This document shows positions 44,541-62,797 of a stretch of 64,000 nucleotides of DNA, piece by piece. Source of the stretch: Sorangium aterium (GTDB lineage: Bacteria > Myxococcota_A > Polyangia > Polyangiales > Polyangiaceae); assembly GCF_028368935.1 (NCBI RefSeq), contig NZ_JAQNDK010000001.1:3658001-3722000 (forward strand), read 5' to 3'. Under the pieces are notes generated by a model. The model had not been told where the DNA came from, did not search any database, and saw only the letters and a program-made list of their open reading frames with translations. Position numbers and translations under genes: made by a program. Numbering within the stretch: the first letter of the stretch is position 1; every line of letters starts with the position of its first letter.

Positions 44541-44947
44541 CGCTTCACTCCTTTTGCCCCATGCAGGGGATCGTGTGCCGGCCCCGGCGCGGCCGGGCAT
44601 CCGGGGGGATCGTCGGCGCGCGAGGCGCTGGCCGCGCGCTCGCGCTCGTGCTCGATGCGCCACGACTCGAAGGCCAGCGCCTGGAGCGCGGAGAGGACGA
44701 GGACGGAGACATCGGTGTTGACGTAGAGCCAGATGAACCCGAGCCCCAGGCCGCGCACGAGCAGGGCCACCGCCGTACCGACGGCGACGTTGCCGCCCCA
44801 GAACAGGAGGCACACGCCCACGCAGCGGATCGCGCGCCGGAGCGCAGGCGGGAGGAGCCCGGCGCGCATCCCCCGGCGGCGCCCCGCCGCATAGACCACG
44901 CAGGACGTGGCGGCGACGACGCCAAGGATGTAGAGCGCGTCCGACAC
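44537..44947 (-). CDS. Small membrane protein of unknown function
   Basis: GTG 44945-44947 follows GGAGGTG. The 136-residue protein has three hydrophobic segments (about 4-22, 42-65, 68-95), with IWLYVNTDVSVLVLSALQAL the most regular. I recognise no family. It lies 2 bp after the YdcF-like gene and overlaps the MFS start by 4 bp, so it is certainly cotranscribed. The C-terminal 40 residues are hydrophilic (ERERAASASRADD). Confidence 0.65.
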   Translation of the reverse strand: MSDALYILGVVAATSCVVYAAGRRRGMRAGLLPPALRRAIRCVGVCLLFWGGNVAVGTAVALLVRGLGLGFIWLYVNTDVSVLVLSALQALAFESWRIEHERERAASASRADDPPGCPAAPGPAHDPLHGAKGVKR

Positions 44948-44949
44948 CG

Positions 44950-45576
44950 CTACACCTCCCCGCGGAGCCGCGAGAGAGCGCGCGCCGCGAGCTCCTGGAG
45001 CAGCCGGCCGATCGCCGAGAGGCGCTCCCCCGGGATGCTCGACGCCGGCGACCCCTCCGGGACGGGCGCGGCGAGGACCTCGAAGCCCGCGCGCTCGAAG
45101 AGCCGGCGCGCGCGCACGATGCGGTGCGCGCCGGTGACCAGCAGGATCCTCCTTGCGCCCCTGGGCAGCAGGAGCTCCGCGCTGCGCTGGGCCTCCACCG
45201 CGGTCGTCAGCCCGCGCGGCTCCGTGAGCAGGGCCGACGGGGGGACGCCCAGGCCCTGCGCGAGGCGAGCGCGCGACTCGGCCTCGCTGGCCGGCCCGTT
45301 GCGGCTGCCGAGCATCAGAACGAGCGGCGCTCGCCCCCCGCGGTACAGCGCGACGCCCTCGACGGCGCGCCGGAGGGAATCCTCCGGGAGCCGCCCGTCC
45401 GGATCGACGTCCGCGCCGAGGACGACCACGGCGTCGGCCTGCCCGGCGTCGGGCGGCGACGCCATCCAGCGATCGAGCGGCGCGGCCGCCGGGGTGAACG
45501 CGGCGACGGCGAACGCCATGAGCCCGATCACGCCGGCCGCGGTGCTCAGGCGGTCCCACGCTCCTTCCATGCGCAT
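44950..45576 (-). CDS. YdcF/ElyC/SanA-family protein (DUF218)
   Basis: The 208-residue protein has an N-terminal membrane anchor (about 10-30) and the DUF218 core: ADAVVVLGADVDPDG (47-61), SLRRAVEGVALYRGGRAP (67-84), the TTAVEAQRS segment (124-132) and ILLVTGAHRIVRARRLFERA (144-163). ElyC and SanA relatives affect envelope and lipid-carrier biology, including enterobacterial common antigen. A role in recycling or controlling the undecaprenyl-linked glycan made here is plausible. It lies 24 bp after the aminotransferase. Confidence 0.8.
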   Translation of the reverse strand: MRMEGAWDRLSTAAGVIGLMAFAVAAFTPAAAPLDRWMASPPDAGQADAVVVLGADVDPDGRLPEDSLRRAVEGVALYRGGRAPLVLMLGSRNGPASEAESRARLAQGLGVPPSALLTEPRGLTTAVEAQRSAELLLPRGARRILLVTGAHRIVRARRLFERAGFEVLAAPVPEGSPASSIPGERLSAIGRLLQELAARALSRLRGEV

Positions 45577-45600
45577 GGCGTCGGATCCCTGGAGCCGCCC

Positions 45601-46767
45601 CTACGTCGCGCCCAGGAGGGCGGGCCTCGAGGAGCGCGCGAGCAGCCGCCGCGCCTCCAGCTCCTCCGCGACGCCGTGGATGGCGGCCTCGACGCGCTCG
45701 AGCGTCTCCTCGCTCATCCGGCCGTGCAGGGGCAGGCAGACCTGGCCCGCGCAGAGCCGGTCCGTGTTCGGGAGGGCGACGCCCGCGGGGAAGCAGTCCA
45801 GCGCGTGCAGGGGCGGGTAGAAGTACCGGCGCGCCTCGACGCCGCGCCGCGCGAAGGCCGCGATGGCGTCGTCGATCGGGGCGTCGATCAACCCGACCCC
45901 GAGGTTCTGCCCGTTGGGGGTCACGCCCGGCGGGATGCGCTGGGCGCGGTACACCTGCGGGTGCCGGGACAGGGCCGCGCGCAGCCGGTCGAGGTACGTC
46001 CGCCTGCGGGCCAGCGCCTCCGGGAGCCGGCGGAGCGACGCGAGCGCCAGGGCGGCGCGCAGCTCGTCCAGCTTGGCGTTCATCCCCGGGACCGACGCCG
46101 AGAGCGGCTGCGCGAGCCCGTGGTTGCGCAGCCGGCGCATCGCCGCGCTGACCTCCCGGTCCGGGGAGACGACCACGCCGCCCTCCGCGGCCACGAGGAC
46201 CTTGGTGGCGTGCAGCGAGTAGGTCGTCGCGGTGAGCAGCGCCTCGGCCTCCCGGCTCGCGGTCTCGGTGCCCATGCCGTGCGCGTTGTCGTAGATCACG
46301 GCCGCGCCCGCGCCGCGGGCCTCGCGCGCGATGGCGGCCAGATCGGGCGGGACGCCGAACACGTTGACCGGGAGGACCAGCGTCGCGCCGTGCTCCGCGA
46401 GCAGGCGGCGCAGGTGCCCCGGATCCAGCGTCCAGGTCTCCGGGTCGACGTCGCAGAAGACCGGCTCGAAGCCCGCGTGCAACGCGGCGTTGAGCGTCGC
46501 GATGAAGGTGAAGGCCGGCAGGATCGCCTTGCCCCGCCGCACCGCCGCGGCCTCGATGGCGAGGCTGATCGCGACGGCGCCGTTCGAGACGGCCACGGCC
46601 TCCTCGACGCCGAGGAACGCCGCGATCGCCCGCTCGAAGCCCTCCGCGAGCGGGCCGCCGTTGCTCAGCCGCCCCGAGCGCAGGACGTCGGCGATCTGCG
46701 CCGCGATCGCGTCCGGCTCGTCCACCTGCGGCAAGACCATGGGGATGAAGGGTCGCTGGTCGCTCAT
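45601..46767 (-). CDS. DegT/DnrJ/EryC1/StrS sugar aminotransferase
   Basis: The 388-residue PLP enzyme shows the DegT pattern: NGAVAISLA near 62-70, Asp160 (YDNAHG) that contacts PLP, and the Schiff-base Lys189 (SLHATKV). It transfers an amino group to a keto-sugar nucleotide to give an amino sugar for the polysaccharide. Start ATG 46765-46767 overlaps the glycosyltransferase stop (46764). Family members use 3- or 4-keto sugars; the substrate is not determinable here. Confidence 0.9.
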   Translation of the reverse strand: MSDQRPFIPMVLPQVDEPDAIAAQIADVLRSGRLSNGGPLAEGFERAIAAFLGVEEAVAVSNGAVAISLAIEAAAVRRGKAILPAFTFIATLNAALHAGFEPVFCDVDPETWTLDPGHLRRLLAEHGATLVLPVNVFGVPPDLAAIAREARGAGAAVIYDNAHGMGTETASREAEALLTATTYSLHATKVLVAAEGGVVVSPDREVSAAMRRLRNHGLAQPLSASVPGMNAKLDELRAALALASLRRLPEALARRRTYLDRLRAALSRHPQVYRAQRIPPGVTPNGQNLGVGLIDAPIDDAIAAFARRGVEARRYFYPPLHALDCFPAGVALPNTDRLCAGQVCLPLHGRMSEETLERVEAAIHGVAEELEARRLLARSSRPALLGAT

Positions 46768-47543
46768 GCTTGTCTCTCCGGACGAAGGCGCTGGTGTACG
46801 ACGCGGCCGATGAACTCCGGGATGCCGAGCAGGTACCGCCGCCAGAGCCGCCGGGGCTCGACCGCCAGGCGGTAGAGCCACTGGACGTGGTTCCGGCGCA
46901 CCCACTCGGGCGGGTACGCGACGGCGCCCGCCACCTGATCCAGCAGCCCCCCCATACACCAGGTGGCGCGCACCTGGAGCGCCCCGAGGTGCTGGCTCAC
47001 CCAGAGCTCCTGCTTGGGCGGGCCGAGGCCGACGATGAGCAAGGCGGCGCCCGAGCCGTTGATCTCCCGGACCACCGCCGCCTCTTCGTCGGGGGCGAAG
47101 TACCCGTGGTGAACGCCGGCGATCCGGAGCCCCGGGCGCTCCGCGGCCAGGCGGCGCGCGACCTCGTCGGCGATCCCGGGCGCGCCGCCGAGCAGGAAGA
47201 CCGAGGCCCCGCGCTCGGCGCAGAGGTCCGCGATCCGGCCCAGCTCGACCGGGCCAACGTTGATGCGCTCCGGGCACGGCCCGCCCAGCAGCCGCGCCGC
47301 CCAGACCACCCCGATGCCGTCGGCGTACACGACGTCGGCCCGGGAAACCGAGGCGCGGTACGGCGACTCGCGCGCCGCCAGCGTGGCGCAGTACGCGTTG
47401 ACGTAGGTGTAGTAGTCGGGCCTTTCGCGCTCGGCCTGCAACGCCTCGTCCAGGCGGCGCAGCAGCTGCTCGAAGGAGAGCCGCGTGACGGGGACGCCGA
47501 GGACGTCGACCCGGGGCGCGCTCGAGGGCGCAGCGACGGTCAT
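46764..47543 (-). CDS. WecG/TagA/CpsF-family glycosyltransferase
   Basis: The 259-residue enzyme shows the family signature VGLGPPKQELWVSQH (about residue 170) and YADGIGVVWAARLLGG (72-87). Family members transfer N-acetylmannosamine or its uronic acid onto an undecaprenyl-linked sugar at the inner membrane face. ATG 47541-47543 overlaps the radical SAM stop, and its own stop overlaps the aminotransferase start. With the DegT enzyme it probably adds an amino sugar as the second sugar of the repeat. Confidence 0.9.
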   Translation of the reverse strand: MTVAAPSSAPRVDVLGVPVTRLSFEQLLRRLDEALQAERERPDYYTYVNAYCATLAARESPYRASVSRADVVYADGIGVVWAARLLGGPCPERINVGPVELGRIADLCAERGASVFLLGGAPGIADEVARRLAAERPGLRIAGVHHGYFAPDEEAAVVREINGSGAALLIVGLGPPKQELWVSQHLGALQVRATWCMGGLLDQVAGAVAYPPEWVRRNHVQWLYRLAVEPRRLWRRYLLGIPEFIGRVVHQRLRPERQA

Positions 47544-48955
47544 GCCTCGCCCCTGGCCGGCGCCACCTTGCCCTGCGCGCTGATGAACGCGCGAGGATCG
47601 GTGACCGGCTCGCGATCGAGGACGGGTCGCGCCTCGTCGGTGCCGAACATCGCGACGTAGTCGCCGTGGAACCCGTCGCAGATGTCGCGGAGCGCGCACC
47701 GCTGGCACCCCGCGCCCTTCTGGTAGCCGTTGTGCTCGACGCGGTTCAGCGCGTCGTGGCGGTAGGCCTCATCGCGATCCCCGCGGCGGCGGAGGAGCTT
47801 GTAGGACAGCCCTTCCAGCTTCCTCATCATGGGGCCGAGCCGCGGGTCCGTGTCGGCGCGGAGCATCCGGCCCCGGAGGTCGATCGCGTCCGCCAGGCGG
47901 AGGAGCGGCTGCCGGAGCCGGCCGAGGCGCGGCCGCGCGCCGAGCGGGACGGGCGGCGACACCGCGCCGGCCCGCATCCGCTGCGGGCCCTTGTTGGTCC
48001 AGGTCCAGCTCGCGAAATCCCACTCGTGCGGGTCGTACGAGAGCTGCTGGTAGTTGTACACAGACGGCCAGTGGCGCTCGGGGACGATGCAGTGGGGCAG
48101 GTACCGGACGTTCGCCTCGACGCCGGCCTGCGCGAGCACGTCCAGGGCCTCGTCGAGCGGGCCCCGCAGGTCGCCATAACGAGGCACGTTCTCCGCGGTG
48201 CGGGCGCCCTCCTTGCGCTGATCCGCGAAGGGGTTGAAGGCGAGGAAGTTGACGGCGCGCGCCCCGAGCTCCACCGACAGCTTCGCGATCGCCGGCAGCT
48301 GCGGCACCGCGAGCTTGGACATCACGCAGTTCACGCGGAACGGCACGTCGAGCGCGATGAGGTGGTTCAGCGCGCGCATCTGGCGCACGTGCGCGCCGCT
48401 CACGCCCACGGCCGCGTCGTGCGCCTTCCCGAGCCCCTGGACGCTGACGAGGAAGTCGGCGACGCCGGAGTCCTTGAACTGCTGCGCCTTGTCGCGCTTG
48501 TCGAGCACCAGCGCGTTCGTGATGAGCGTCGGCGCGAGGCCGATCCCGGCGCAGTACCGGATCAGCGCGTGGATGTCGCGCCAGATGGTCGGCTCGCCGC
48601 CCTGGATGTCGATCGCGTCGTTCCCGTAGAACTCGACGAGGGTCCGGCAGATCTCCTGCGCCTTCTCCAGCGACATGAACGGGTGCTCGGGGTGCTCCTT
48701 GTCCTCGATCCGATCGAGGAAGTAGCAGAAGTGGCAGCGCAGGTTGCACGTCTGCCCGAGCCACAGCACGCCGCGGCGCGTGAGCGCTCGGGTCTTGCCG
48801 TGGGGCCGCGGCGCGGCGGCCGGGCGCGCGGCCGGCACCGCCAGGGCGAGGGCTCGCTCGAGCAGGATCTCCGGCGGCTCGATGTCCGCCGAGACCAGCG
48901 ACTCCTTTCGCCTGAGCTGCACCAACGAAACGTTGCCATCCGTGCTTGTCTTCAC
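47540..48955 (-). CDS. Radical SAM enzyme with C-terminal Cys cluster (first gene of operon)
   Basis: GTG 48953-48955 follows GGAGAGGA and gives 471 residues. The radical SAM cluster motif is C70-x3-C74-x2-C77 (TCNLRCHFC), with QGGEPTIW as the GGEP motif near 120. The C-terminus holds CQRCALRDICDGFHGDYV, a partial SPASM/auxiliary cluster motif. It could act on a sugar nucleotide, a lipid carrier or a peptide. It leads a six-gene set coupled by ATGA overlaps (47540-47543, 46764-46767, 44537-44540). There is no peptide precursor gene visible next to it, so sugar or lipid modification is favoured over RiPP maturation. Upstream in-frame ATG 48988 is an alternative start. Confidence 0.82.
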   Translation of the reverse strand: MKTSTDGNVSLVQLRRKESLVSADIEPPEILLERALALAVPAARPAAAPRPHGKTRALTRRGVLWLGQTCNLRCHFCYFLDRIEDKEHPEHPFMSLEKAQEICRTLVEFYGNDAIDIQGGEPTIWRDIHALIRYCAGIGLAPTLITNALVLDKRDKAQQFKDSGVADFLVSVQGLGKAHDAAVGVSGAHVRQMRALNHLIALDVPFRVNCVMSKLAVPQLPAIAKLSVELGARAVNFLAFNPFADQRKEGARTAENVPRYGDLRGPLDEALDVLAQAGVEANVRYLPHCIVPERHWPSVYNYQQLSYDPHEWDFASWTWTNKGPQRMRAGAVSPPVPLGARPRLGRLRQPLLRLADAIDLRGRMLRADTDPRLGPMMRKLEGLSYKLLRRRGDRDEAYRHDALNRVEHNGYQKGAGCQRCALRDICDGFHGDYVAMFGTDEARPVLDREPVTDPRAFISAQGKVAPARGEA

Positions 48956-49109
48956 GTGGTCCTCTCCTGGATTCGATCCTTCACGCACGGCGCGCGGCGC
49001 CCTGCCGCTTCACGTGACTGCTGCCGGGAAGTTGAACCGCACCGCGATCGGGGCGATAGGGGAGCGGCATGCGCGCGCGGCGACCTCCGGTGAGGGATCT
49101 CCTCGATCC

Positions 49110-50375
49110 ATGACGTCGTCGGCGCTCCGCGAGGACGCCCCGCCGCCGGCGAGGCGAAGCGTCTCGGGCAGCATGGCGCTGAAGACCGCGAGCGATCTCG
49201 TCTCGCGCGGCGTCCGCATGCTCCTCGCCGTGGTCGCCGCGCGGCTCCTGGGGCCGGCGGGCTTCGGCGACTACAGCTACGCCTTCGCCGTGGGCTTCCT
49301 GCTCGGCGAGCTCGCGGACCTCGGCCTTCACCTGTTCATCGCGCGGGAGGTGGCCCGCGATCCCGGCGCTCCCATCGGCCCGCTCGTGCGCCTCAAGCTC
49401 GCCGTGACGCTGGCCGCCGGCGCCGTCGGCCTCGTTGTCGGCCTCCTCGCGGGCGCGGCCTCGCCGCGCCGGACGCTCGTGTGGCTGCTGACGGCCGCGT
49501 GGCTCATGGCCTCGTTCGTCGAGATGCTCAACCAGGTGTTCCGCGGGCACCAGCGGATGGAGCGCGAGGTGATGGTGGCGGTCACCATGGCCGTCACGTC
49601 CTTCGGCCTGGGGACGGGGGCGCTGCTCTCGGGGCTCGGCGCGCTCGGCCTGGCGTGGAGCCTCGTCGCGGGACACCTGGTCGCCCTCACGCTGGCCCTG
49701 ACCCTCGCCGCCCAGCTGCTCGAGCGCCGGCAGTGGTCCAGCGAGGGCGCGGCGCTGCCGCAGGGCTTCCTCCGCGAGGCCGGGCCGCTCGCTGTGGTGA
49801 TGCTCGCCAGCCCCCTCTACTTCCAGCTCGATCTCCTGATGCTGGGCTGGATGAGCACCCCCCACGCGGTCGGCGACATGAGCGCGGTCCAGCGCATGAT
49901 CGGCGGCGCCATGATGCTGCCGGGCGTCGTGCGCGCGGCGGTCTTCCCCGCCTTCGTCGCCAGCCGCTCCGCGAGCGCCCGCAGGCGCCTCGCCACGCTC
50001 ACCTTCGTCGGGCTCATGGCCGCGGGCGCGCTCATGAGCGCCGTCGTGTGGTGGATCGGCGGGCCGCTCGTCCGGATCGTGTTCGGCCCCGACTACGCGA
50101 GCGCCGTGCTGCCGCTGCAGCTCCTGACCACGGCGCTCGTGTGGATGGTGCCGGAGCTCGCCATCGGCCCGATGCTGTTCGCCGCGGGCCAGCAGCGCCC
50201 GTACGCGGCCCTCTGGACGGCCACCGTGCTCCTCATCGCCGCCGGGGACCTGTGGGCGGTGCCCGCGCACGGCGCCGCCGGCGCGGCCGCGGTGAAGCTC
50301 GTGGTCACGCTCGGCCTCGTGGCCGGCGAGGTGATCGTCCTCTTTCGCGTCAGGGACCACCTCGGGGCCTCCTGA
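49110..50375 (+). CDS. Polysaccharide flippase (Wzx/MATE-like)
   Basis: The 421-residue protein has 12-14 hydrophobic segments and the oligosaccharide flippase start SGSMALKTASDLVSRGVRML then AARLLGPAGFGDYSYAFA (residues 20-60). It should move lipid-linked repeat units across the inner membrane. It is transcribed away from the radical SAM operon, with 154 bp between starts, and faces the sugar transferase operon convergently. No Wzy polymerase or chain-length regulator is visible in the window. Confidence 0.85.
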   Translation: MTSSALREDAPPPARRSVSGSMALKTASDLVSRGVRMLLAVVAARLLGPAGFGDYSYAFAVGFLLGELADLGLHLFIAREVARDPGAPIGPLVRLKLAVTLAAGAVGLVVGLLAGAASPRRTLVWLLTAAWLMASFVEMLNQVFRGHQRMEREVMVAVTMAVTSFGLGTGALLSGLGALGLAWSLVAGHLVALTLALTLAAQLLERRQWSSEGAALPQGFLREAGPLAVVMLASPLYFQLDLLMLGWMSTPHAVGDMSAVQRMIGGAMMLPGVVRAAVFPAFVASRSASARRRLATLTFVGLMAAGALMSAVVWWIGGPLVRIVFGPDYASAVLPLQLLTTALVWMVPELAIGPMLFAAGQQRPYAALWTATVLLIAAGDLWAVPAHGAAGAAAVKLVVTLGLVAGEVIVLFRVRDHLGAS

Positions 50376-50427
50376 GCGGCCGAGGAGCGGGCCTCTCGCG
50401 GCGTCGTCGATCGCCCGGCGTGCCACG

Positions 50428-51315
50428 TCAGTAGCTCCCCACGCCGAAGAGCATGCGCAGCGGCGTGATCGCCATGATCTTCAGGTCGCCCCAGAAGCTG
50501 GCGTTGGCCAGGTAGTAGATGTCGAGGATGACGCTCTGGTCGAAGGTCACCTGGTTGCGCGCCACGACCTGCCACAGGCCCGTGATCCCGGGACGGCCGT
50601 CGGTGCGGAGGCGGTGCCACGCCTTGAGCGCGTCGTACTCCGCCATCGGATAGGGCCTCGGCCCCACCAGGGCCATGTCGCCTTTGAGGACGTGGAGGAG
50701 CTGGGGGATCTCGTCGAGGCACAGCCAGCGCAGGACGCCGCCCAGCCGCGTGATGCGCGGATCCCTCGGGTGCTTGGGGATGACGACCCCATCGTCGCGC
50801 ACGAAGCCGGGGATCTCGCCGCGGATGACCGAGAGCCGCGCGGCGTCGCTCCTGTCCTCGCCGTCCCGGCGCCGCGTCCGCATCGTCCGGTACTTGAAGA
50901 ACAGGAACGGCTTCCCGCGCAGCCCTGCGCGCGGAGCGACGTGGAACGCCCCGCCCGGGGACTCGAGGCGGATCAGCAGCGCGATCGTCAGCCACAGCGG
51001 CGCGCCCCCGAGCAGCACCGACAGGGCCACGAGCATCTCGACGGCCCGGGTGGCCGCTGCGTCGAGGCCGCCCCGCTCGCCCGAGCCGAACCGGACCACC
51101 GGGAGCCCCTCCGCGGTCCGCTCGGACAGGCCGAGGCGCTCCGCGAGCCACTCGAGGTCCCGCGAGGCGATCGCGACGGCCTGCGCCCGCTCGCGCGCCC
51201 GGTGCAGCACGTCCCCCACCGCGTCGAGGCCCTCGACGACGACGGGGGCGCCCGGATCCGCCGGAGGAGGCGGCGCGGTTGCACCTTGAGCGAAGGACGT
51301 CGTTGCAACGGTCAA
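50428..51315 (-). CDS. Undecaprenyl-phosphate sugar phosphotransferase (initiating)
   Basis: The 295-residue protein has one hydrophobic segment (about 92-112) and the C-terminal bacterial sugar transferase domain: FFKYRTMR (137-144), DEIPQLLHVLKGDMALVGPR near 208, GITGLWQV and the FDQSVILDIYY motif. It moves a sugar-phosphate from UDP-sugar to undecaprenyl phosphate, the first step of the repeat unit. It lacks the four N-terminal membrane segments of WbaP/WcaJ, so it is a short PglC-like form with an added N-terminal region. It is the last gene of the second operon. Confidence 0.88.
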   Translation of the reverse strand: MTVATTSFAQGATAPPPPADPGAPVVVEGLDAVGDVLHRARERAQAVAIASRDLEWLAERLGLSERTAEGLPVVRFGSGERGGLDAAATRAVEMLVALSVLLGGAPLWLTIALLIRLESPGGAFHVAPRAGLRGKPFLFFKYRTMRTRRRDGEDRSDAARLSVIRGEIPGFVRDDGVVIPKHPRDPRITRLGGVLRWLCLDEIPQLLHVLKGDMALVGPRPYPMAEYDALKAWHRLRTDGRPGITGLWQVVARNQVTFDQSVILDIYYLANASFWGDLKIMAITPLRMLFGVGSY

Positions 51316-51376
51316 GAAAACCTCCTGGTGGTCTCCGGTCCGGCGTCGCGGCGGTCCCCCGCCCTGCCGTCTCGCC

Positions 51377-52177
51377 TCAGCCCTCTCTCAGCTGCTCCCC
51401 GAACGCCCGGCGCGTCCGCCACCGCGCCCACGCCGGAAAGAGCTCTCCCACCACGCTGCGCAGGCGGAGCCGCAGCGGAGCGCCGCCCTGCGCCCGCGGC
51501 TCGCGCCAGAGCGCGGCCACGCTCTCGGCGACCCGGTCCACCGGGACGCCGCCGTCGTGCGGCCGGGACACCGACCCCCGGCGCCGCCGCTCGTCCTCGT
51601 GCAGGCCCGTGTCCACCCAGCCGGGGTGCACCTGGGAGACCCGGATCCCCCGGGGCGCGAGCTCGAGCTCGAGCGCGTCGCTGAGGCCACGGACGGCGAA
51701 CTTCGTGGCGCAGTAGACGCTCTTCATGGGCACGGCGCGGAACGAGACCTCGGAGCCGACGTTGATGATGTGGCCGCCGCCGTCCCCCATCGCCTGCGCC
51801 GCGTGCCGGCAGCCGAGGATGACGCCGAGGAGGTTGGTGCGGACGATCGCCTCCACGTCCTCGAGCGCCATCTCGTCGAGGCGCCCGTAGCCCTCCCGGG
51901 CGGCGTTGTTGACGACGACGTCGATCCCCCCGAGGAAAGCGCGCGCCGCGCCGAAGAAGGCGCGCTGGGAGGCGTCGTCGCCGACGTCCACCGCGCCCGT
52001 GCCGAGCCGGCGGCCCGCGCCCTCGGGCGCTGCGCTCTGCTGCAATGCGAGGAGCGCCCGCTCGTCCCGCGCGCCGGCGAACACCCGGTGCCCCTCCGCG
52101 AGCGCGCGCGCGACGATGGCCCGCCCGATCCCGCGGGAGCCGCCGAGCACGACGATGGCGAGCGTCCGCTCAGGCAC
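51377..52177 (-). CDS. Short-chain dehydrogenase/reductase
   Basis: The 266-residue classical SDR has the cofactor motif GGSRGIGR (13-20), NNAA (about 90) and the catalytic Tyr-x-x-x-Lys in VYCATKFA (about 155). GTG 52175-52177 overlaps the upstream radical SAM stop by 8 bp; TTG 52192 is an alternative start. It may reduce a keto sugar or a lipid intermediate. The C-terminal 50 residues are basic and could touch the membrane. The sugar transferase follows after 61 bp. Confidence 0.85.
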   Translation of the reverse strand: MPERTLAIVVLGGSRGIGRAIVARALAEGHRVFAGARDERALLALQQSAAPEGAGRRLGTGAVDVGDDASQRAFFGAARAFLGGIDVVVNNAAREGYGRLDEMALEDVEAIVRTNLLGVILGCRHAAQAMGDGGGHIINVGSEVSFRAVPMKSVYCATKFAVRGLSDALELELAPRGIRVSQVHPGWVDTGLHEDERRRRGSVSRPHDGGVPVDRVAESVAALWREPRAQGGAPLRLRLRSVVGELFPAWARWRTRRAFGEQLREG

Positions 52178-53231
52178 GCGCGACCCGCGCAAGCAGATCG
52201 CGCCCCAGGCTGCGCGCGAGGAGCTTCTCGCTGCTCACGAGGTGCTGCTGGTTGAGCCACGGCGCCGCGCAGGCGAAGCAGCCGTGATCGCGCAGGTGCT
52301 CCCACGCGGCCCGGACGCCGACCTCGAGCACGCTCCTGGCGGGGAAGTCCGCGAGCCGCTGGTTGCACGGGTACATGCGGCCGTCGCCGTCGATGAAGGC
52401 GTAGTACCTGCCCGCGCTGCACGGGAGGTACGGGAAGCGCTCTCGCCGCTCCTCCCGGGTCACGCGATCCGCGTCGTGGTGTTGCCACCAGCGCGCCATG
52501 TTCTCCCAGACGCGCTCGCGGAAGACCATCGGCGCCCCCCGGCGCTTCTGCTCGAGCAGCGCGTCCGCCAGGGCCTGCCGCTCGCCCGCGTCGAGGGAGT
52601 TGTCGCCGTGCACGCGCAGCTGCCGATCGGACTGCGGCGCGTAGCTCATGACGACCTCGAGCCGCGCGCCGAAGCGGCCCGCCAGATCGAGGAGCCAGGG
52701 CACCTGGTCCTTGTTCCGGCGGTTCAGCACCGCCTTCACGATGCGCGGAATGCCGCGCGCCTGGCACGCCTCGAGCGCCGTCATGGCCACGGCGAAGGTC
52801 CCCTGACCGCGGTTCAGATCGTTAATCGGCTCCGGACCGTCGACGCTCACGACGATCGAGCTCAGGTTCGCGAGCTCATCCACGCGCTCCTTGACGCGGA
52901 ATCCGCTGGTGACCATTCCGACCGAGATCCCTCGGCTCACCGCCCGCTCGATGATGCGGCCAATGGATTTGTGCAGCATCGGCTCGCCGCCCGTGAGCGT
53001 CAGGACCGCCGTCCCCAGCGCCGCCGCCTCGTCCACGATCGCGCACAGCTGCTCGACCTTGAGCTGTCCGATGTCGTCCTGCCGGTGGTGGTAGTCGCCG
53101 TAGCAGTACTCGCAGCTCAGATGACATCGATTGGTAACACACACATCCACCCAGATCGGACGCGCTTCGCGGGCGAGCTTTGCGCGGACGAGCGAACCCA
53201 GGTAGCGAGGCGAGCGGTGCACGCTCGGCAT
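52170..53231 (-). CDS. Radical SAM enzyme with SPASM-like C-terminus (second)
   Basis: The 353-residue protein has C36-x3-C40-x2-C43 (RCHLSCEYC), TGGEPML and a C-terminal cysteine set (LPCSAG, MYPCNQ, CFACAAP) like SPASM auxiliary clusters. ATG 53229-53231 is preferred because GGAGG lies 10 bp upstream; ATG 53258 is in frame. SPASM enzymes modify peptides or sugars, and AviX12-like members epimerise sugars. Located with an SDR and the initiating sugar transferase, it may epimerise or oxidise a sugar. It shares little beyond the core with the first radical SAM enzyme of the locus. Confidence 0.85.
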   Translation of the reverse strand: MPSVHRSPRYLGSLVRAKLAREARPIWVDVCVTNRCHLSCEYCYGDYHHRQDDIGQLKVEQLCAIVDEAAALGTAVLTLTGGEPMLHKSIGRIIERAVSRGISVGMVTSGFRVKERVDELANLSSIVVSVDGPEPINDLNRGQGTFAVAMTALEACQARGIPRIVKAVLNRRNKDQVPWLLDLAGRFGARLEVVMSYAPQSDRQLRVHGDNSLDAGERQALADALLEQKRRGAPMVFRERVWENMARWWQHHDADRVTREERRERFPYLPCSAGRYYAFIDGDGRMYPCNQRLADFPARSVLEVGVRAAWEHLRDHGCFACAAPWLNQQHLVSSEKLLARSLGRDLLARVARA

Positions 53232-53362
53232 ATTAAGGAACTCGCCTCCAGATGTCATCCGGTCTTTGTAATTACTATTTCCTATGGTAGAGATCCTTCG
53301 ACCGATCACGGTGCCACGGCCCCGAGCTTTACCGAACAGCGCGTCAAGGAGGTATTTTTCCG

Positions 53363-54301
53363 ATGAGTGCGAGCAAGCGAATCCTGGTCACGGGTGGGGC
53401 TGGTTTCCTCGGGTCGCACCTCTGCGCACGGCTTCTGGCCGACGGGCACCACGTGATCTGCGTCGACAGCATGGTGACGGGGCGTGACGAGAACCTCGGG
53501 CCGCTGCTGAAGAACCCGCGGTTCGAGCTGCACCGCTGCGACGTGAGCGAGCCGCTCCGCTTCGAGGTCGAGCAGATCTACAACATGGCCTGCGCGGCGT
53601 CGCCCGTGAAGTACCGGGCCGATCCGGTGCACACGCTCAACACGAACGTGTTCGGCGCGATCAACGTCCTCCGCCTGGCGCAGGACCTGGGGGCCCGGGT
53701 CCTGCAGGCCTCCACCTCCGAGGTCTATGGCGACGCGCTCGTCCACCCGCAGCACGAGGACTACTGGGGGAACGTCAACCCCATCGGGCCGCGGGCCTGC
53801 TACGACGAGAGCAAGCGGGTCGCGGAGACGTACTTCTGGGAGTACCGCCAGACCCGAAACGTCGATACCGTCATCGTGCGTATTTTCAATACCTACGGCC
53901 CGAACATGGACCGGAACGACGGCCGGGTCATCGCCAACTTCGTTGTGAAGGCGCTGCGCGGCGAGGCGCTGGAGCTGTACGGCGGAGGCCACCGCACGCG
54001 CTCGTTCTGCTTCGTCAGCGACCTGATCGAGGGGCTGGTCCGCGTGATGAACGCCAAGGACCTGACCGGGCCGGTCAACCTCGGGAATCCGGCCGAGACG
54101 AGGATGCAGGACCTCGCCGAGCTCATCATCCGCAAGACCGGCGGGCGCGCGAAGCTGACGATGAGCGATGGCCTCATCGACGATCCCCAGCGGCGCAGGC
54201 CCGACATCTCCCGGGCGACGGAGCTGCTCGGCTGGCGCCCTGTGGTCGATCTCGACTCGGGCCTCGATCGCACGATCGACTGGTTCCGCCCGCGCGTCTG
54301 A
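53363..54301 (+). CDS. UXS-type NAD-dependent sugar-nucleotide decarboxylase/epimerase
   Basis: ATG 53363 follows AAGGAGG. The 312-residue extended SDR has GGAGFLGS (11-18), the active-site YDESK (about 148-152) and ARVLQASTSEVYGD-type core, with high similarity to UDP-glucuronate decarboxylase. UXS makes UDP-xylose from UDP-glucuronate. It should supply xylose or a 4-keto intermediate for the polysaccharide. The divergent radical SAM operon starts 131 bp away, and the gap contains an AT-rich stretch (about 53260-53285) suited to a shared promoter. Confidence 0.9.
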   Translation: MSASKRILVTGGAGFLGSHLCARLLADGHHVICVDSMVTGRDENLGPLLKNPRFELHRCDVSEPLRFEVEQIYNMACAASPVKYRADPVHTLNTNVFGAINVLRLAQDLGARVLQASTSEVYGDALVHPQHEDYWGNVNPIGPRACYDESKRVAETYFWEYRQTRNVDTVIVRIFNTYGPNMDRNDGRVIANFVVKALRGEALELYGGGHRTRSFCFVSDLIEGLVRVMNAKDLTGPVNLGNPAETRMQDLAELIIRKTGGRAKLTMSDGLIDDPQRRRPDISRATELLGWRPVVDLDSGLDRTIDWFRPRV

Positions 54302-54360
54302 CGTCCGGCGACGAGCGCGGGGAGCAGGCTCGCGGGATACAAGCTCAGCCGCACGAACGC

Positions 54361-54508
54361 CGATCACGTCGAGCGAACGTGAAATGAACCGCCAAGGCGC
54401 CAAGGACGCCAAGAGCAGAAAATGTTCTGGCGTCTTGGCGTCCTTGGCGCGCTTGGCGGTTCGAAATTCTGCTCTTTTCTGGCGGGTTTAACCCGCCTGT
54501 CGCGCTGG
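54361..54508. repeat. Dispersed palindromic repeat family 1, copy C
   Basis: It starts CGATCACGTCGAGCG and ends GGTTTAACCCGCCTGTCGCG. Arms ACCGCCAAGGCGCCAAGG and CCTTGGCGCGCTTGGCGG pair around an A/T-rich centre. Same orientation as copy B. It lies between the epimerase stop and the glycosyltransferase stop, so it may terminate both convergent genes. Confidence 0.8.
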
Positions 54509-54531
54509 AGGCGCCCAGCCGGGGCAGGCGC

Positions 54532-55479
54532 TCAGCCGCCCTTCGACGGGAGGCGGCCGGAGGTGGCCATGACGCGCCCGCCGCGGCCGGCGCTGACGTC
54601 CGCCAGGATGCGATCGCGCTGCGCCCGGATCCGCTGTCCGAGCACGCGGTGGATCGCGGCCCTGAGGGCCATTCCCCCGAGCCCGCGCGTGACCGCGCCG
54701 GGCCCCGGCGCCGATCTCAGCCGGTCCAGGAGGATCTTCGCCGCCGTCTGCGCCGAGAGCAGGCGGGCGCCGTCGCGGCGGTGGAGCTCCGGGTAGCTCG
54801 AGCGGAGCTGCTCTCTCGCGGCGGCGTTGCGCGCGAGCGCGCGGACCACGTCGGCCATGCTGTCCACCTCGAAGTGGATGGGCGCCTCGGGGACCACGAC
54901 CAGCGCATCGCCGGCGACGAGCGCCGTGAGCCACGAGTCCTCGGTCACGAGGTCGACGGGCAGCCGAGGCAGCGTCCCGGCAGGCAGGAGCCCACGCTCG
55001 GCCATCACCGCGCCCAGCCGATCGCGATCGATGGCATAGAGGCGACCGGAGATGTAGTCCTGACCGAGGCTGGTCGTCAGCAGGCGGAGGACGGTGCCGA
55101 GCGGCGGGGGCGGCGCCCCGCGCGGCTGCTCGAACGCCGCGGCGACGGCGGCGCGCGGAGAGCGCTCCAGGGCGCGCAGCAGGGCCGAGATGGAGCCCTC
55201 GGCCGGGCGCACGTCCGCGTCCGTGAACACGAGGCGACGGTTGCGCGCCCGGGCCACGAGGGCGTTCCATGCGTTGTTCTTTCCGAGCTCGCTCTCGATG
55301 ACGGCGAGCCGCGGCTCCCGCTCCCGGAACGCCTCGGCGACACGCTCGGTGCCGTCCGTGCACCCGTTGAGACAGACGAGGATCTCGTCCACCTCGGGGC
55401 CGAGCCGCGACAGCTCGGTGAGGGTCGCCTCGATGGTGCGGACTTCGTTGTACGCAGGCAGGCAGATGCTGGCAGCCAT
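54532..55479 (-). CDS. Family 2 glycosyltransferase
   Basis: The 315-residue GT-A enzyme begins ASICLPAYNEVRTIEATL and has the metal-binding DxD as FTDADVRP (about 88-95). The acceptor part contains VTEDSWL, the ED of which is the likely base. ATG 55477-55479 is preferred, since homology begins there; GTG 55545 would add a leader. It adds a sugar to the lipid-linked repeat or decorates it. No membrane segment is strong, so it is probably peripheral at the inner membrane. Confidence 0.83.
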   Translation of the reverse strand: MAASICLPAYNEVRTIEATLTELSRLGPEVDEILVCLNGCTDGTERVAEAFREREPRLAVIESELGKNNAWNALVARARNRRLVFTDADVRPAEGSISALLRALERSPRAAVAAAFEQPRGAPPPPLGTVLRLLTTSLGQDYISGRLYAIDRDRLGAVMAERGLLPAGTLPRLPVDLVTEDSWLTALVAGDALVVVPEAPIHFEVDSMADVVRALARNAAAREQLRSSYPELHRRDGARLLSAQTAAKILLDRLRSAPGPGAVTRGLGGMALRAAIHRVLGQRIRAQRDRILADVSAGRGGRVMATSGRLPSKGG

Positions 55480-55783
55480 CGACTCCGACGCATACCACCA
55501 CGCCGGCTCGGGTGTCACGCGGCGCGCGCCGCGCGGGATGGCCACCCAGGAACTGACGATGGCGACGATGGCGACGATGGCGGTCGCGCCGGCGATGCCG
55601 ACGCGGTCGCACCCATTGCACGAAATTTAGGCTTGGGTAAGGCTCCTGATTATGTTAGCGTAAGAACAACCCCGCGTGACTACAAAGTCCGCCGGAGGTT
55701 CGCGCCGTCGCGCTGGTCTCGCGCCTGACGTCATCGTGATCCTTAGGTGTGCCGGTCCAGGTGCGGCGCTGAAAGGAGAGCTT
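55480..55783. other. Non-coding gap with short tandem repeat
   Basis: GACGATGGC occurs three times in tandem at 55555-55581, in the upstream leader of the glycosyltransferase. The AT-rich piece 55620-55680 probably carries the promoter of the next gene. No gene is seen. Confidence 0.45.
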
Positions 55784-57421
55784 ATGCACAGGCTTTTTGC
55801 GTTCGTGCTCGCTGGCACGGTGCTCCTGGCAGCCTCGCCGCCGGCGCATGCGAAGCGACCGATCCTCGCCGAGGGGTCGCCGATGCACGGCACCAATGGG
55901 ATGAATGTGGGGCCGGATGGTCGGCTGTACGTCGCGAGCTTCCTTGGCAATGAGATCGCCATCGTGAACCGCAACAGCGGAGCCATCGTGGATCGGCTCG
56001 ACGCGTCGGACGGGATCGATGGCCCGGACGACCTCACGTTCGGCCCGGATGGCTCGCTCTACTGGACCTCGCTCATCCCTGGCAATGTCGTGAGGCACGC
56101 GCCGTCGGGCGCGATCACCGAGCAGTTCGTCGCGCCGGGGGTCAACCCCATCACGTTCTCCGATACGGGGCGGCTCTTCGTGGCGCTCGACTTCTTCGGT
56201 GACGGGCTCTACGAGGTCGATCCGGAGCTGTCGGCTCCGCCGCGCCACATCGCGAGCAACCTCGGCTTCCTGAACGGCATGGACTGGGGGCCCGACGGCA
56301 GGTTGTACGGGCCGATCTGGACGCAAGGCAGGGTGATCAGCATCGATGTGGACTCCTGCACTGGCGCTGTCGACCCGGACGTGGAGTGCGACCTCCAGAC
56401 GGTCGCGGACGGCTTCTTCATCCCTGCGGCGGCCAAGTTCGACGGGCTCGGTCGGCTCCACGTGGTCGATCAGAACGGCGAGGTGGTGCGGGTCGACATC
56501 GAGACGGGCGAGAAGGAGGTCATCGCGGAGCTCACGCCGGGGCTCGACAACCTCGCCTTCGACCCGCAGGGCAATCTCTACGTGTCGAGCGCCAGCGACG
56601 GCTTCATCGTCCGGATCAAGCCGAACGGCCAGACGCGCACGATCATGCAGGGCGGCACGATCATGCCCGGCGGCGTGGCCGTGACGACCGAAGGATGCGC
56701 CGAATCGGTTTATGTGGCCGATCTGTCGTCGCTGCGGAAGTTCGACGGGGACACGGGCGCTCCGCTGGGCGTCGAGCGGTCGTTCCTCGGTCAATCGGAG
56801 TTTCACGCGCCTGCCACGGTGTCGGCGGACGGCTCGAATCTGATCTTGACCGCGTGGTTCAGCAGCGTGGTCCAGACCTACGACCCGGCGACGGCGACGG
56901 TCCTCGAGACGTACAGCAACTTCGTCTCGCCGCTCAACGCGGTCCGGTTCCAGGGAGATCTCGTGGTGGCCGAGCTCGGCGCGGGGCCGGGCGCGGCGCG
57001 CGTCGCCCGCCAGACGGCCGGCGGCCCCGTGACGCTCGCGCCGATGACCGTGCCCTCGGGCCTCGCGGTGTCGGGAGGCGACCTCTGGGCCGCAGACTGG
57101 GCCACGGGCCAGGTCCTCCAGGTGGCGGCGGGGGGCGTGACGCTCTCTCCGCCGCTCGTGGTGGCCGACGGCCTGGATCAGCCGGAGGGGATGGCCGTCG
57201 ATCTGGACGGCACCCTGCTCGTCGTGGAGGTCGGGAAGCGCCGCCTGCTGCGCGTGGACCCGTCGACGGGGCACACCTGGGTCGTGAAAAAGTACCTGAA
57301 GGTGGGGCTCGAGGCGGTCACGGGGACGGTGCCGACCTACGCGTTGAGCAGCGTCGCCGTGGGCCCGTCAGGGACGATCTATGTCTCTGGCGACAAGGGC
57401 AACGTGCTCTATCGATTCTGA
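55784..57421 (+). CDS. Secreted NHL/SMP-30-like beta-propeller protein
   Basis: ATG 55784 with GGAGAG upstream gives a signal peptide (about 23 residues, ending PPAHA). The 545-residue product is a series of propeller blades with GPDGRLYVAS, GPDGSLYWTS, GLGRLHVVDQN and DPQGNLYVSS motifs, seen in NHL, SMP-30 and related secreted lactonases. No clear metal-site acid pattern for a lactonase was found. It is probably periplasmic or extracellular. A pair of Cys (SCTGAVDPDVEC) likely forms a disulfide. Confidence 0.8.
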   Translation: MHRLFAFVLAGTVLLAASPPAHAKRPILAEGSPMHGTNGMNVGPDGRLYVASFLGNEIAIVNRNSGAIVDRLDASDGIDGPDDLTFGPDGSLYWTSLIPGNVVRHAPSGAITEQFVAPGVNPITFSDTGRLFVALDFFGDGLYEVDPELSAPPRHIASNLGFLNGMDWGPDGRLYGPIWTQGRVISIDVDSCTGAVDPDVECDLQTVADGFFIPAAAKFDGLGRLHVVDQNGEVVRVDIETGEKEVIAELTPGLDNLAFDPQGNLYVSSASDGFIVRIKPNGQTRTIMQGGTIMPGGVAVTTEGCAESVYVADLSSLRKFDGDTGAPLGVERSFLGQSEFHAPATVSADGSNLILTAWFSSVVQTYDPATATVLETYSNFVSPLNAVRFQGDLVVAELGAGPGAARVARQTAGGPVTLAPMTVPSGLAVSGGDLWAADWATGQVLQVAAGGVTLSPPLVVADGLDQPEGMAVDLDGTLLVVEVGKRRLLRVDPSTGHTWVVKKYLKVGLEAVTGTVPTYALSSVAVGPSGTIYVSGDKGNVLYRF

Positions 57422-57563
57422 CCCAATCGCGACGAGGAGGCGCTGTCCTCGTTCGTCCTCGCCCCCTGAATCCAGACGTGAGGCTCGCGACCTGCTGCTC
57501 TGGCCAGGAGCAGCAGGCGACCCATAGAGGATGAGCCCCGTTTCGCGTAAGCTCGCGGGCTGC

Positions 57564-58886
57564 ATGACCGTCCCGACGCTGACACGAAGAGACCTCAACC
57601 GGGCCACGCTCGCGCGGCAGATGCTGCTCGCGCGGGAGCAAACGTCGGTCGTCCACGGGATCGAGCGGCTGATCGCCCTCCAGGCCCAGCTGGCGCGGCC
57701 TCCTTTCATCGGGCTCTGGTCGCGGCTGGCGGCGTTCCGGCGCGAGCAGCTCGTCCAGCTCGTCGTGCGCCGCGAGGTCGTCCGGGCGCCGTTCCTGCGC
57801 GGCACGCTGCACCTCGTGAGCGCAAGGGACTACCTGGATCTGCACCCGGTCATCGCGCCGGTGCTCCACGCCGGGATGCGGTCGGTCCTCCGCGAGCGCG
57901 CGGACGCCCTCGACATCGCTCGGCTGGTCGCCCTGGCGCGCGCGTACTTCGACGCGGAGCCGCGGACCATGGACGAGCTGCGCGATCACCTGGCCGAGCT
58001 CCACGCCGACGGCGACGTGCGCGCCATGGCCCTCGCGGTTCGCATGCACCTGCCCGTCGTCCAGGTGCCGGCCGAGACCCCATGGGCATATCCGGGAACG
58101 GCGGACTTCGCCCCGGCGGCGTCCTGGCTCGGCAAACCGCTCCGCGACGGCGGCGCGCCGCAGGCGCTCGTGCTGCGTTATCTCGCGTCGTTCGGCCCGG
58201 CGACAGCGACCGACGTGCAAACGTGGTCCGGCCTGACCCGCGTCAAGGAGGTGCTCCACGCCTTGCGAGAGCAGCTCTGCGTGTTCCGCGACGAGCGAGG
58301 CCGGGAGCTCTTCGACCTGCCCGACGCGCCGCGGCCGCCCGCGGACACCGCCGCGCCGGCCCGGTTTCTCCCCGATTACGACAACCTCCTGCTCGCGCAC
58401 GACGACCGCACGCGGGTCATCGCGGACGAGCATCGCCCGCGGATCGTCATGTCCGCCAACCTGCGGATCCTGCCGACGTTCCTCGTGGACGGGTTCGTGG
58501 CCGGCACATGGACGATCGAGCGGAAGAAGGCCACGGCCGCGCTCGTGCTCGAGCCGTTCGAGGCCCTTGGCAAGGCGGCGCGCGAGCAGCTCGCCGAGGA
58601 AGGGGAGGCGCTCCTCCGATTCATGGAGGAGGACGCCGGCGCGTTCGAGGTGCGCTTCGGGAAGAATGGATCCACGAAGGCGCCTGCGGCGCGGGCGAAG
58701 GCGAAGAGCGGCGGAGCCGCCAAGGCGCCTGCGGCGGGGGTAAAGGCGAAGAGCGGCGGAGCCGCCAAGGCGCCTGCGGCGCGGGCTAAAGGCGGGGGTG
58801 CAGCGAAGGCGCCTGCGGCGCGGGCGAAGGCGAAGAGCGGCGGAGCCGCCAAGGCGCCTGCGGCGCGGGCGAAGGCCACGAGATGA
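57564..58886 (+). CDS. AlkZ/YcaQ-family (HTH_42) putative DNA glycosylase with histone-H1-like tail
   Basis: ATG 57564 begins the family core (a second in-frame ATG at 57531 is possible). The 440-residue protein shows tandem winged-helix sequence of the HTH_42/DUF1006 family, including the catalytic Q-x-Q motif of AlkZ as Gln40-Ala41-Gln42 (IALQAQLARPPFIGLWSRL). Known members unhook DNA crosslinks or remove alkylated bases. After about residue 370 comes a tail of KAPAARAKAKSGGAA repeats (15 residues, about 4.7 copies), which resembles histone H1 or bacterial AlgP-type tails. The tail would bind DNA nonspecifically. This fusion is the notable point. Confidence 0.8.
   Translation: MTVPTLTRRDLNRATLARQMLLAREQTSVVHGIERLIALQAQLARPPFIGLWSRLAAFRREQLVQLVVRREVVRAPFLRGTLHLVSARDYLDLHPVIAPVLHAGMRSVLRERADALDIARLVALARAYFDAEPRTMDELRDHLAELHADGDVRAMALAVRMHLPVVQVPAETPWAYPGTADFAPAASWLGKPLRDGGAPQALVLRYLASFGPATATDVQTWSGLTRVKEVLHALREQLCVFRDERGRELFDLPDAPRPPADTAAPARFLPDYDNLLLAHDDRTRVIADEHRPRIVMSANLRILPTFLVDGFVAGTWTIERKKATAALVLEPFEALGKAAREQLAEEGEALLRFMEEDAGAFEVRFGKNGSTKAPAARAKAKSGGAAKAPAAGVKAKSGGAAKAPAARAKGGGAAKAPAARAKAKSGGAAKAPAARAKATR
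58677..58882 (+). repeat. 45-bp tandem repeat encoding the Lys/Ala/Pro tail
   Basis: Units start AAGGCGCCTGCGGCGCGGGC and are nearly identical, with one shortened unit. They encode KAPAARAKAKSGGAA. The high identity implies recent expansion. Confidence 0.85.
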
Positions 58887-62435: not shown

Positions 62436-62797
62436 ATCCTTCCTTTCCCTGGTGCTCGCGCTCGTACCGGCCGGCCAGATCACCGGGCCCTCCCCTCCGA
62501 GGCAGCTCATCGAGCGAGACGTCGGCATGAGCCGTGCGACCTCCCCGAAGCGAGACGCGAGGCGGCCTCCTGGCTGCCGACGCTCGCTCGGTCTCCGCTT
62601 GGATGCGGCCAGCGGCGACCCCATTCACCGCGCCACGCAGGACCGGTGCCCCCTGCTCAGCGACGTCGCAGGCCGGGGCTCACCCGCGTGCGGAAGGAGA
62701 AAAGAACACCCCCATCGAGACACTTTGCAAGTAGTCTTACCCAACAACGTGCGCTGGACGCCCTGACTCGCTGTCGCCGGCACGGATCGGATATTGT
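62436..62797. other. Non-coding gap
   Basis: No frame is recognised. The kelch gene promoter probably lies here. AAGAACACCCCC-type sequence near 62700 is unremarkable. Confidence 0.45.

Follow-up and report, generated by a model that had tools for sequence, protein, structure and literature searches.

Sugar-acting radical S-adenosylmethionine (SAM) enzymes have been described chiefly in antibiotic pathways. BtrN, the 2-deoxy-scyllo-inosamine dehydrogenase (4m7t), carries a single auxiliary 4Fe-4S cluster, ligated by four cysteines with the spacing C-x17-C and then C-x2-C, and a DegT aminotransferase performs the next step of its pathway. BlsE, the cytosylglucuronate decarboxylase (7vob), shares the radical SAM fold and takes a sugar-nucleoside as substrate. 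Here, a stretch of 64,000 nucleotides from Sorangium aterium (contig NZ_JAQNDK010000001.1, positions 3,658,001 to 3,722,000; referred to as the window) was analyzed, in which two radical SAM genes, rSAM1 and rSAM2, lie in a surface-glycan locus. The rSAM1 enzyme probably acts on a sugar or glycan, a role well supported because its family is found in glycosyltransferase neighborhoods and is fused to glycosyltransferases in several loci. For rSAM2, the same role is suggested by operon context and is close to evenly balanced. The joint claim, that both enzymes serve glycan tailoring, is put forward tentatively.

The available part of PMC10991966 names Cys249 as the hydrogen donor of the radical SAM enzyme NeoN. 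The Campylobacter jejuni HS:19 capsule and methylation cluster contains the radical SAM gene CjjRM3420_1449, to which the accessible portion of PMC8743553 assigns no function; a methyltransferase gene and a glycosyltransferase gene lie nearby, and the likeness to the present locus is one of gene context. Campylobacter phages CP220 and CPt10 encode 11 and 12 radical SAM proteins, respectively (PMC2853527, available part). Neither glycan loci nor phages are therefore new settings for a radical SAM gene. A gene of CP220 is distantly related to rSAM1 (23.7% identity, covering 54% of the query), with no glycosyltransferase annotated within 9 kb and with an epimerase and two deacetylases 5.5-7.6 kb away. 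No role connected with sugars is assigned to radical SAM proteins in the accessible parts of the papers on Borg, Plesiomonas, and Geobacter.

Two radical SAM enzymes with four auxiliary cysteines each

The two genes and their cluster residues are as follows.

47540..48988, minus strand: rSAM1, radical SAM enzyme, 482 aa (Pfam Radical_SAM, 62 bits)
48725-48748, minus strand: rSAM1 cluster motif CxxxCxxC, residues 81-88
48089-48091 and 47678-47707, minus strand: rSAM1 auxiliary cysteines C300 and C428/C431/C437, respectively
52170..53309, minus strand: rSAM2, radical SAM enzyme, 379 aa (Pfam Radical_SAM, 86.6 bits)
53103-53126, minus strand: rSAM2 cluster motif CxxxCxxC, residues 62-69
52419-52421, 52365-52367, and 52269-52280, minus strand: rSAM2 auxiliary cysteines C297, C315, and C344/C347, respectively

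Both proteins belong to the radical SAM superfamily: they score above the Pfam gathering score of 29.5 bits, and the motif is present in 21/21 aligned rows for rSAM1 and 22/22 for rSAM2 (counts include the window's own proteins). GC content at third codon positions is of coding type in both open reading frames (ORFs; 0.94 for rSAM1, 0.88 for rSAM2). A reading made earlier from the sequence only had proposed two distinct enzymes with C-x3-C-x2-C clusters in a surface-polysaccharide locus, and this was borne out; the proteins share 24% identity over 242 residues. Their exact starts are unsure; homology sets in around residue 66 of rSAM1 and at residues 35-50 of rSAM2.

The extra C-terminal cysteines pointed out in that reading proved real and conserved. 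In rSAM1, C300, C428, C431, and C437 are kept in 21/21 rows, and all seven cluster cysteines are present in every one of them. In rSAM2, C297, C315, C344, and C347 are kept in 20, 22, 16, and 21 of 22 rows, respectively. Four conserved cysteines per protein are enough for one auxiliary Fe-S cluster and do not make up the SPASM set, which comprises seven auxiliary cysteines. No Pfam SPASM row was obtained for either protein at E 0.001, and the SPASM label does not fit. The four cysteines could ligate one cluster as in Twitch-type (BtrN-like) dehydrogenases; the models of this part of the proteins are of low or mixed confidence. The rSAM2 spacing, C297-x17-C315 and C344-x2-C347, is like that of BtrN, to which the rSAM2 profile matched weakly and in the core only (33.3 bits).

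None of the best 25 of 50 NCBIfam rows for rSAM1, or of the best 25 of 69 for rSAM2, reached its cut-off; the highest were AhbD (80.5 of 500 bits) and AhbC (84.3 of 650 bits), respectively. BlsE was the top PDB sequence row for rSAM1, but this match was restricted to the shared core, and rSAM1 reached 39.8 of the 400 bits required by the BlsE family model (TIGR04466). The structure model of rSAM1 had a mean predicted local distance difference test score (pLDDT) of 61.5, with mixed confidence over the auxiliary-cysteine part; that of rSAM2 (pLDDT 42.1) was not used. All top 50 PDB rows for the rSAM1 model were radical SAM enzymes of many kinds (Z 14.1-17.2), BlsE among them (21% identity, 266 aligned residues, Z 17.0, root mean square deviation 3.9). 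Structure prediction, which the sequence-only reading had proposed for telling sugar-acting from peptide-acting enzymes, thus returned the radical SAM fold and, given this spread of kinds, did not separate the two substrates for rSAM1.

The rSAM1 family and its glycosyltransferases

When 84,980 species genomes were scanned with the single rSAM1 protein, a search confined to close relatives, 11 pattern matches were obtained and four loci were confirmed, in Sorangium and in metagenome-assembled genomes (MAGs) of Geobacter, Desulfobulbaceae, and Planctomycetota. Neighbors were tallied within four genes on either side at 11 rSAM1-family loci outside Sorangium (loci are designated by L numbers). 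Of 76 listed neighbors 66 were scanned, after 10 spurious- or truncated-looking ones had been dropped. Tallies give proteins per Pfam family, with overlap between families, for the first 25 of 59 families (rSAM1) and of 37 (rSAM2); each tallied neighbor was assigned to its locus by eye. The loci are partly dependent, L065 and L066 being near-duplicates (neighboring glycosyltransferases 91% identical) and L009 and L064 coming from the same genome. Genes were called by GC-pattern scripts, with no trained gene finder, and frames were misread in L035.

Glycosyltransferases were the commonest neighbors (Glycos_transf_2, 14/66; Glyco_tranf_2_3, 13/66; Glyco_trans_1_4, 5/66); ABC-2 exporters (ABC2_membrane, 3/66) and Sulfotransfer_3 (2/66) were also found. 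A glycosyltransferase of one type, 40-51% identical, directly adjoins the rSAM1 relative in L009, L010, and L060, and one of a second type does so in L008 and L062. In L067, from a genome of the Planctomycetota draw, the two are fused, with the glycosyltransferase domain N-terminal, and in L062 the radical SAM enzyme is fused to a methyltransferase. Three viral contigs encode proteins in which a family 2 glycosyltransferase forms the N-terminal part and an rSAM1-related enzyme the C-terminal part (L069:4248-6059, L070:4248-6056, and L071:4224-6020), as determined by Pfam for L069 and L071 and by alignment for L070. The fusion genes of L069 and L071 lie near head-protein genes and other glycosyltransferase genes. 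Judged by these gene sequences, an rSAM1-type enzyme is also carried by phages.

Radical SAM genes occur in multiples at several family loci (three in L008, two in L009, and three in L063, one of the latter just under the Pfam cut-off), so that the paired arrangement of the window is recurrent. The proposed family signature is CxxxCxxC ... NVRYxPxC ... CxxCxxxxxCDG. With 21 aligned rows, the family is apparently undescribed: among the papers listed by searches of the open literature, a coverage outside which most subscription papers fall, none presents a glycosyltransferase-linked family of rSAM1 type in its title or opening abstract. In a tree of 22 rows, the Sorangium pair grouped with Desulfobacterota and Planctomycetota rows in a set of five (support 97/93). 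Since 8/19 forks are open and several rows are long, horizontal transfer of rSAM1 is only suggested.

Some further features of these loci were recorded. The L062 fusion protein (L062:9869-12346, 825 aa) consists of an rSAM1-type core, a Rossmann-like insert seen by eye, and a terminal class I methyltransferase domain; NeuB- and DegT-type genes are also present at this locus (by eye). In two genomes, a UbiA-family prenyltransferase gene (L008:4888-5733 and L064:2318-3181) precedes a short rSAM1-type gene; by eye, both resemble phosphoribosyl-decaprenyl synthases, a hint of a furanose sugar. On the viral contig L072 (3231-9714), several radical SAM-like genes, identified by eye, surround a nucleotide-sugar epimerase-type gene, and the gene at 5094-6071 matches phage family phrog_27238.

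Operons of the locus and a possible reaction

The eight further genes of the locus are listed below.

44950..45576, minus strand: DUF218 protein (PF02698), 88% identical to the L007 copy
45601..46767, minus strand: DegT/DnrJ pyridoxal phosphate-dependent sugar aminotransferase (PF01041, E 1.2e-75), 4-base overlap with the WecG end
46764..47543, minus strand: WecG/TagA/CpsF glycosyltransferase (PF03808, E 2.8e-55), ATGA overlap with the rSAM1 stop
49110..50375, plus strand: Wzx-type flippase (PF01943, E 4.2e-22), divergent from rSAM1
50428..51315, minus strand: initiating sugar-phosphate transferase (PF02397, E 4.9e-46)
51377..52192, minus strand: short-chain dehydrogenase (SDR; PF00106, E 3.6e-45)
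53363..54301, plus strand: UDP-glucuronate decarboxylase (UXS; homology to solved UXS), divergent from rSAM2
54532..55545, minus strand: family 2 glycosyltransferase (GT2; PF00535, E 2.2e-19)

Together with both radical SAM genes, the locus comprises ten genes (44950-55545) in a genome of 13.47 Mb; no polymerase was recognized among the ten. At each junction of rSAM1, WecG, and DegT, start and stop overlap by 4 bases (starts at 47543 and 46767), which couples the genes; the first of these overlaps was read directly in the sequence as ATGA. The SDR ORF overlaps the end of rSAM2 by 23 bases, assuming its first start codon. Because the flippase and UXS genes are on the opposite strand, the operons are confined to rSAM1-WecG-DegT(-DUF218) and rSAM2-SDR-sugar transferase. 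The operon contents proposed previously were therefore not confirmed: WecG and DegT lie with rSAM1 and the initiating transferase with rSAM2, but the flippase and UXS genes are divergent. The latter gene had been called an epimerase; its product is a UDP-glucuronate decarboxylase, matching over residues 4-310, full length, to the solved UDP-glucuronic acid decarboxylase 1 (E 6.8e-107).

The locus would start, extend, and flip an undecaprenyl-linked surface glycan, which may hold a UDP-glucuronate-derived pentose and probably also an amino sugar, with UXS and DegT supplying the decarboxylated nucleotide sugar and the amination. The rSAM1 enzyme, and less surely rSAM2, would alter a sugar of this glycan or of its precursor. 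SAM would be cleaved at the CxxxCxxC cluster, and the resulting 5'-deoxyadenosyl radical would abstract a hydrogen from a sugar carbon. The four-cysteine auxiliary cluster could then accept an electron, giving a keto sugar by dehydrogenation as in BtrN, and the coupled DegT enzyme could aminate this keto sugar. Such oxidation of a sugar carbon is the preferred mechanism but is weakly supported, and it is considered rather unlikely to be the actual reaction. A bolder reading, itself of low probability, is that the rSAM1 family works with glycosyltransferases, sometimes as one protein, and performs radical chemistry on the nascent or lipid-linked glycan and not on the free nucleotide sugar.

Several observations count against a sugar or glycan substrate, or against this reaction. 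The closest rSAM1 relative by tree, in L061, has no glycosyltransferase beside it by eye and is adjoined by two sulfotransferase-like genes (by eye). DegT occurs only once among the 66 neighbors of the other rSAM1-family loci, no more than in the rSAM2 set (1/36), and an oxidation-amination pair can therefore not be the general logic of the family. In the structural comparison, the peptide maturase SkfB (Z 17.2) ties with BlsE over the same 266 residues and at the same deviation of 3.9. PDB profile scores are nearly tied for rSAM1 (BlsE 63.5, PqqE 60.9 bits), and for rSAM2 they place SkfB (125) and PqqE (121.6) above BlsE (110 bits). Finally, among 36 neighbors of rSAM2 relatives at six loci (all 29 listed ones, with 4 more from L038 and 3 from L035 picked by eye), no glycosyltransferase family appeared within the first 25 of 37 families. 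The six loci surround relatives of rSAM2 taken from searches with many more hits. The glycosyltransferase context is thus particular to the rSAM1 family and not a property of radical SAM neighborhoods generally, and because the sampled rSAM2 relatives stand in other contexts, the role of rSAM2 rests on its own operon. The sugar tailoring put forward earlier is well supported for rSAM1, by neighborhoods and fusions, and weakly for rSAM2.

Alternative explanations

The sequence-only reading had inferred an epimerised or deoxy sugar made by enzymes of the AviX12 or NeoN kind. Epimerization of this kind, or dehydration or deamination of the DesII kind, is of low probability overall. The DegT product has as its nearest solved structure 2po3, named a '4-dehydrase' (E 9.2e-44), and as its best NCBIfam row DesI (TIGR04427, 201.9 bits, below the cut-off of 650). 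A DesI-like enzyme together with a radical SAM enzyme could deaminate to a deoxy sugar, and BlsE and DesII are among the PDB rows; given these likenesses of DegT, deamination was kept as a rival. The DesII match, however, amounts to 37.9 bits and covers the shared core only. NeoN and AviX12 are radical SAM enzymes that act on sugars; judged from the rSAM1 rows, the hydrogen donor Cys249 of NeoN has no family-wide counterpart in rSAM1. C114 and C146, which are not cluster ligands, each occur in 10/11 closest rows, and no non-ligand cysteine is common to all 21 rows. Since a hydrogen-donor cysteine is not family-wide and no curated family was reached among the rows listed, the evidence leans away from NeoN-type epimerization, and the earlier inference found no support.

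A lipid or lipid carrier, such as an isoprenoid, is about equally unlikely to be the substrate of rSAM2 in place of a sugar. The neighbors of its relatives include Radical_SAM (7/36), B12-binding (4/36), LPG_synthase_TM (2/36), DegT (1/36), and UbiA (1/36) proteins, the first three of which would fit such a substrate, and HpnH is among its sub-threshold NCBIfam rows. HpnH scored only 57.1 of the 225.05 bits required (TIGR03470), and outside Sorangium the closest relative of rSAM2 that was found shares 39% identity with it, so that context need not transfer. Moreover, SDR and initiating sugar transferase genes follow rSAM2 in both Sorangium copies.

Within the sampled loci, the rSAM2 relatives of L035, L037, and L039, from the same phylum, adjoin B12-binding radical SAM genes (by eye), and an LPG_synthase_TM gene lies nearby in two of the three (by eye); these form a separate, uncharacterised cluster type.

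Maturation of a ribosomally synthesized and post-translationally modified peptide (RiPP) by one or both enzymes, with accidental placement in a glycan locus, is very improbable. It draws on SkfB as the top structural row for rSAM1, tied with BlsE, and on SkfB and PqqE as top sequence rows for rSAM2. Against it, no PqqD/RRE or SPASM Pfam row was found for either enzyme, the maturase rows listed fell far under their cut-offs (e.g., mycofactocin maturase, 83.5 of 265 bits for rSAM2), and the family's fusions join glycosyltransferases and a methyltransferase. A scan of 44900-55700 for small ORFs of 20-100 aa gave 32, of which 30 were set aside as at least half covered by called genes; by eye, neither of the two others is precursor-like. 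The small ORF at 51312-51431 is matched in L007 over 24 residues, a stretch that falls for the most part within the end of the SDR gene. No RiPP maturase closely homologous to either enzyme was thus found, nor was an intergenic precursor seen in the scanned region, in agreement with the earlier remark that no small peptide gene sits next to either enzyme.

Protein activation in the manner of an anaerobic sulfatase maturase (anSME) is highly improbable: anSME rows occur in the PDB sequence and structure lists, but rSAM1 reached 53.5 of the 349.45 bits required (TIGR03942) and no sulfatase is among the ten locus proteins, the only part of the genome searched for one.

Distribution and flanking sequences

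The closest named relative at the locus is L007, a Sorangium MAG, which keeps 9/10 genes in order, both radical SAM genes included, at 82-90% identity; the tenth (GT2) is cut off by the contig end. At the thresholds used, rSAM1, rSAM2, and the flippase are present together in 2/6 Sorangium genomes and absent from the other four. Conservation of gene order in other myxobacteria, proposed earlier as a check, was therefore seen in one sister Sorangium, while both genes are missing from four. Two of the six Sorangium genomes thus share the locus as an accessory block, and the two enzymes go along with it.

Genome searches were run at stated E-value limits, weaker relatives being uncounted. The rSAM1 protein was found in 2/144 relatives at E 1e-20, both Sorangium, and in 1/282 genomes of a phylum-wide draw at E 1e-40, namely the window's own genome. 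Its profile at E 1e-50 matched 7/297 genomes drawn from the phylum of the Geobacter MAG and 2/246 from that of the Planctomycetota MAG, counts that include those MAGs plus more distant, shorter members. Weak relatives of rSAM2 are widespread (18/144 relatives at E 1e-25). Neither enzyme was matched in the plasmid collection at E 1e-15. Between the two Sorangium copies, the ratio of nonsynonymous to synonymous substitution rates was 0.47 for rSAM1 and 0.25 for rSAM2, and 0.18-0.66 for five other locus genes.

The right-flank gene (55676-57421) is present in 5/6 Sorangium genomes and missing from the sister MAG. In the regions around it (L080-L083, 18-20 kb each), 57531-58886 was found at 84% in L082, not adjacent, and 38034-40805 gave a 30% partial match in L082; no further window genes were found in L080-L083. 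As these regions carried almost no other window genes, insertion at an empty site could not be shown. The promoter scan gave one consensus match (53258-53230, minus strand), within the start of the rSAM2 ORF, where 0.3 was expected, and the terminator scan one match against 1.9 expected; neither was used. A predicted tRNA-Pro (62118-62203, minus strand) coincides with part of a long, repeat-rich ORF (58953-62624) that is also on the minus strand; the true start of that ORF probably lies further downstream.

Significance

Radical SAM enzymes are oxygen-sensitive and Sorangium is aerobic; rSAM1 and rSAM2 thus raise the question of how an aerobe employs such enzymes. The 21 aligned rows of the rSAM1 family constitute a defined candidate set. 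If the proposed role is true, this family, tied to surface-glycan loci and in places fused to glycosyltransferases, would bring radical chemistry to the polysaccharides of the cell surface as well.

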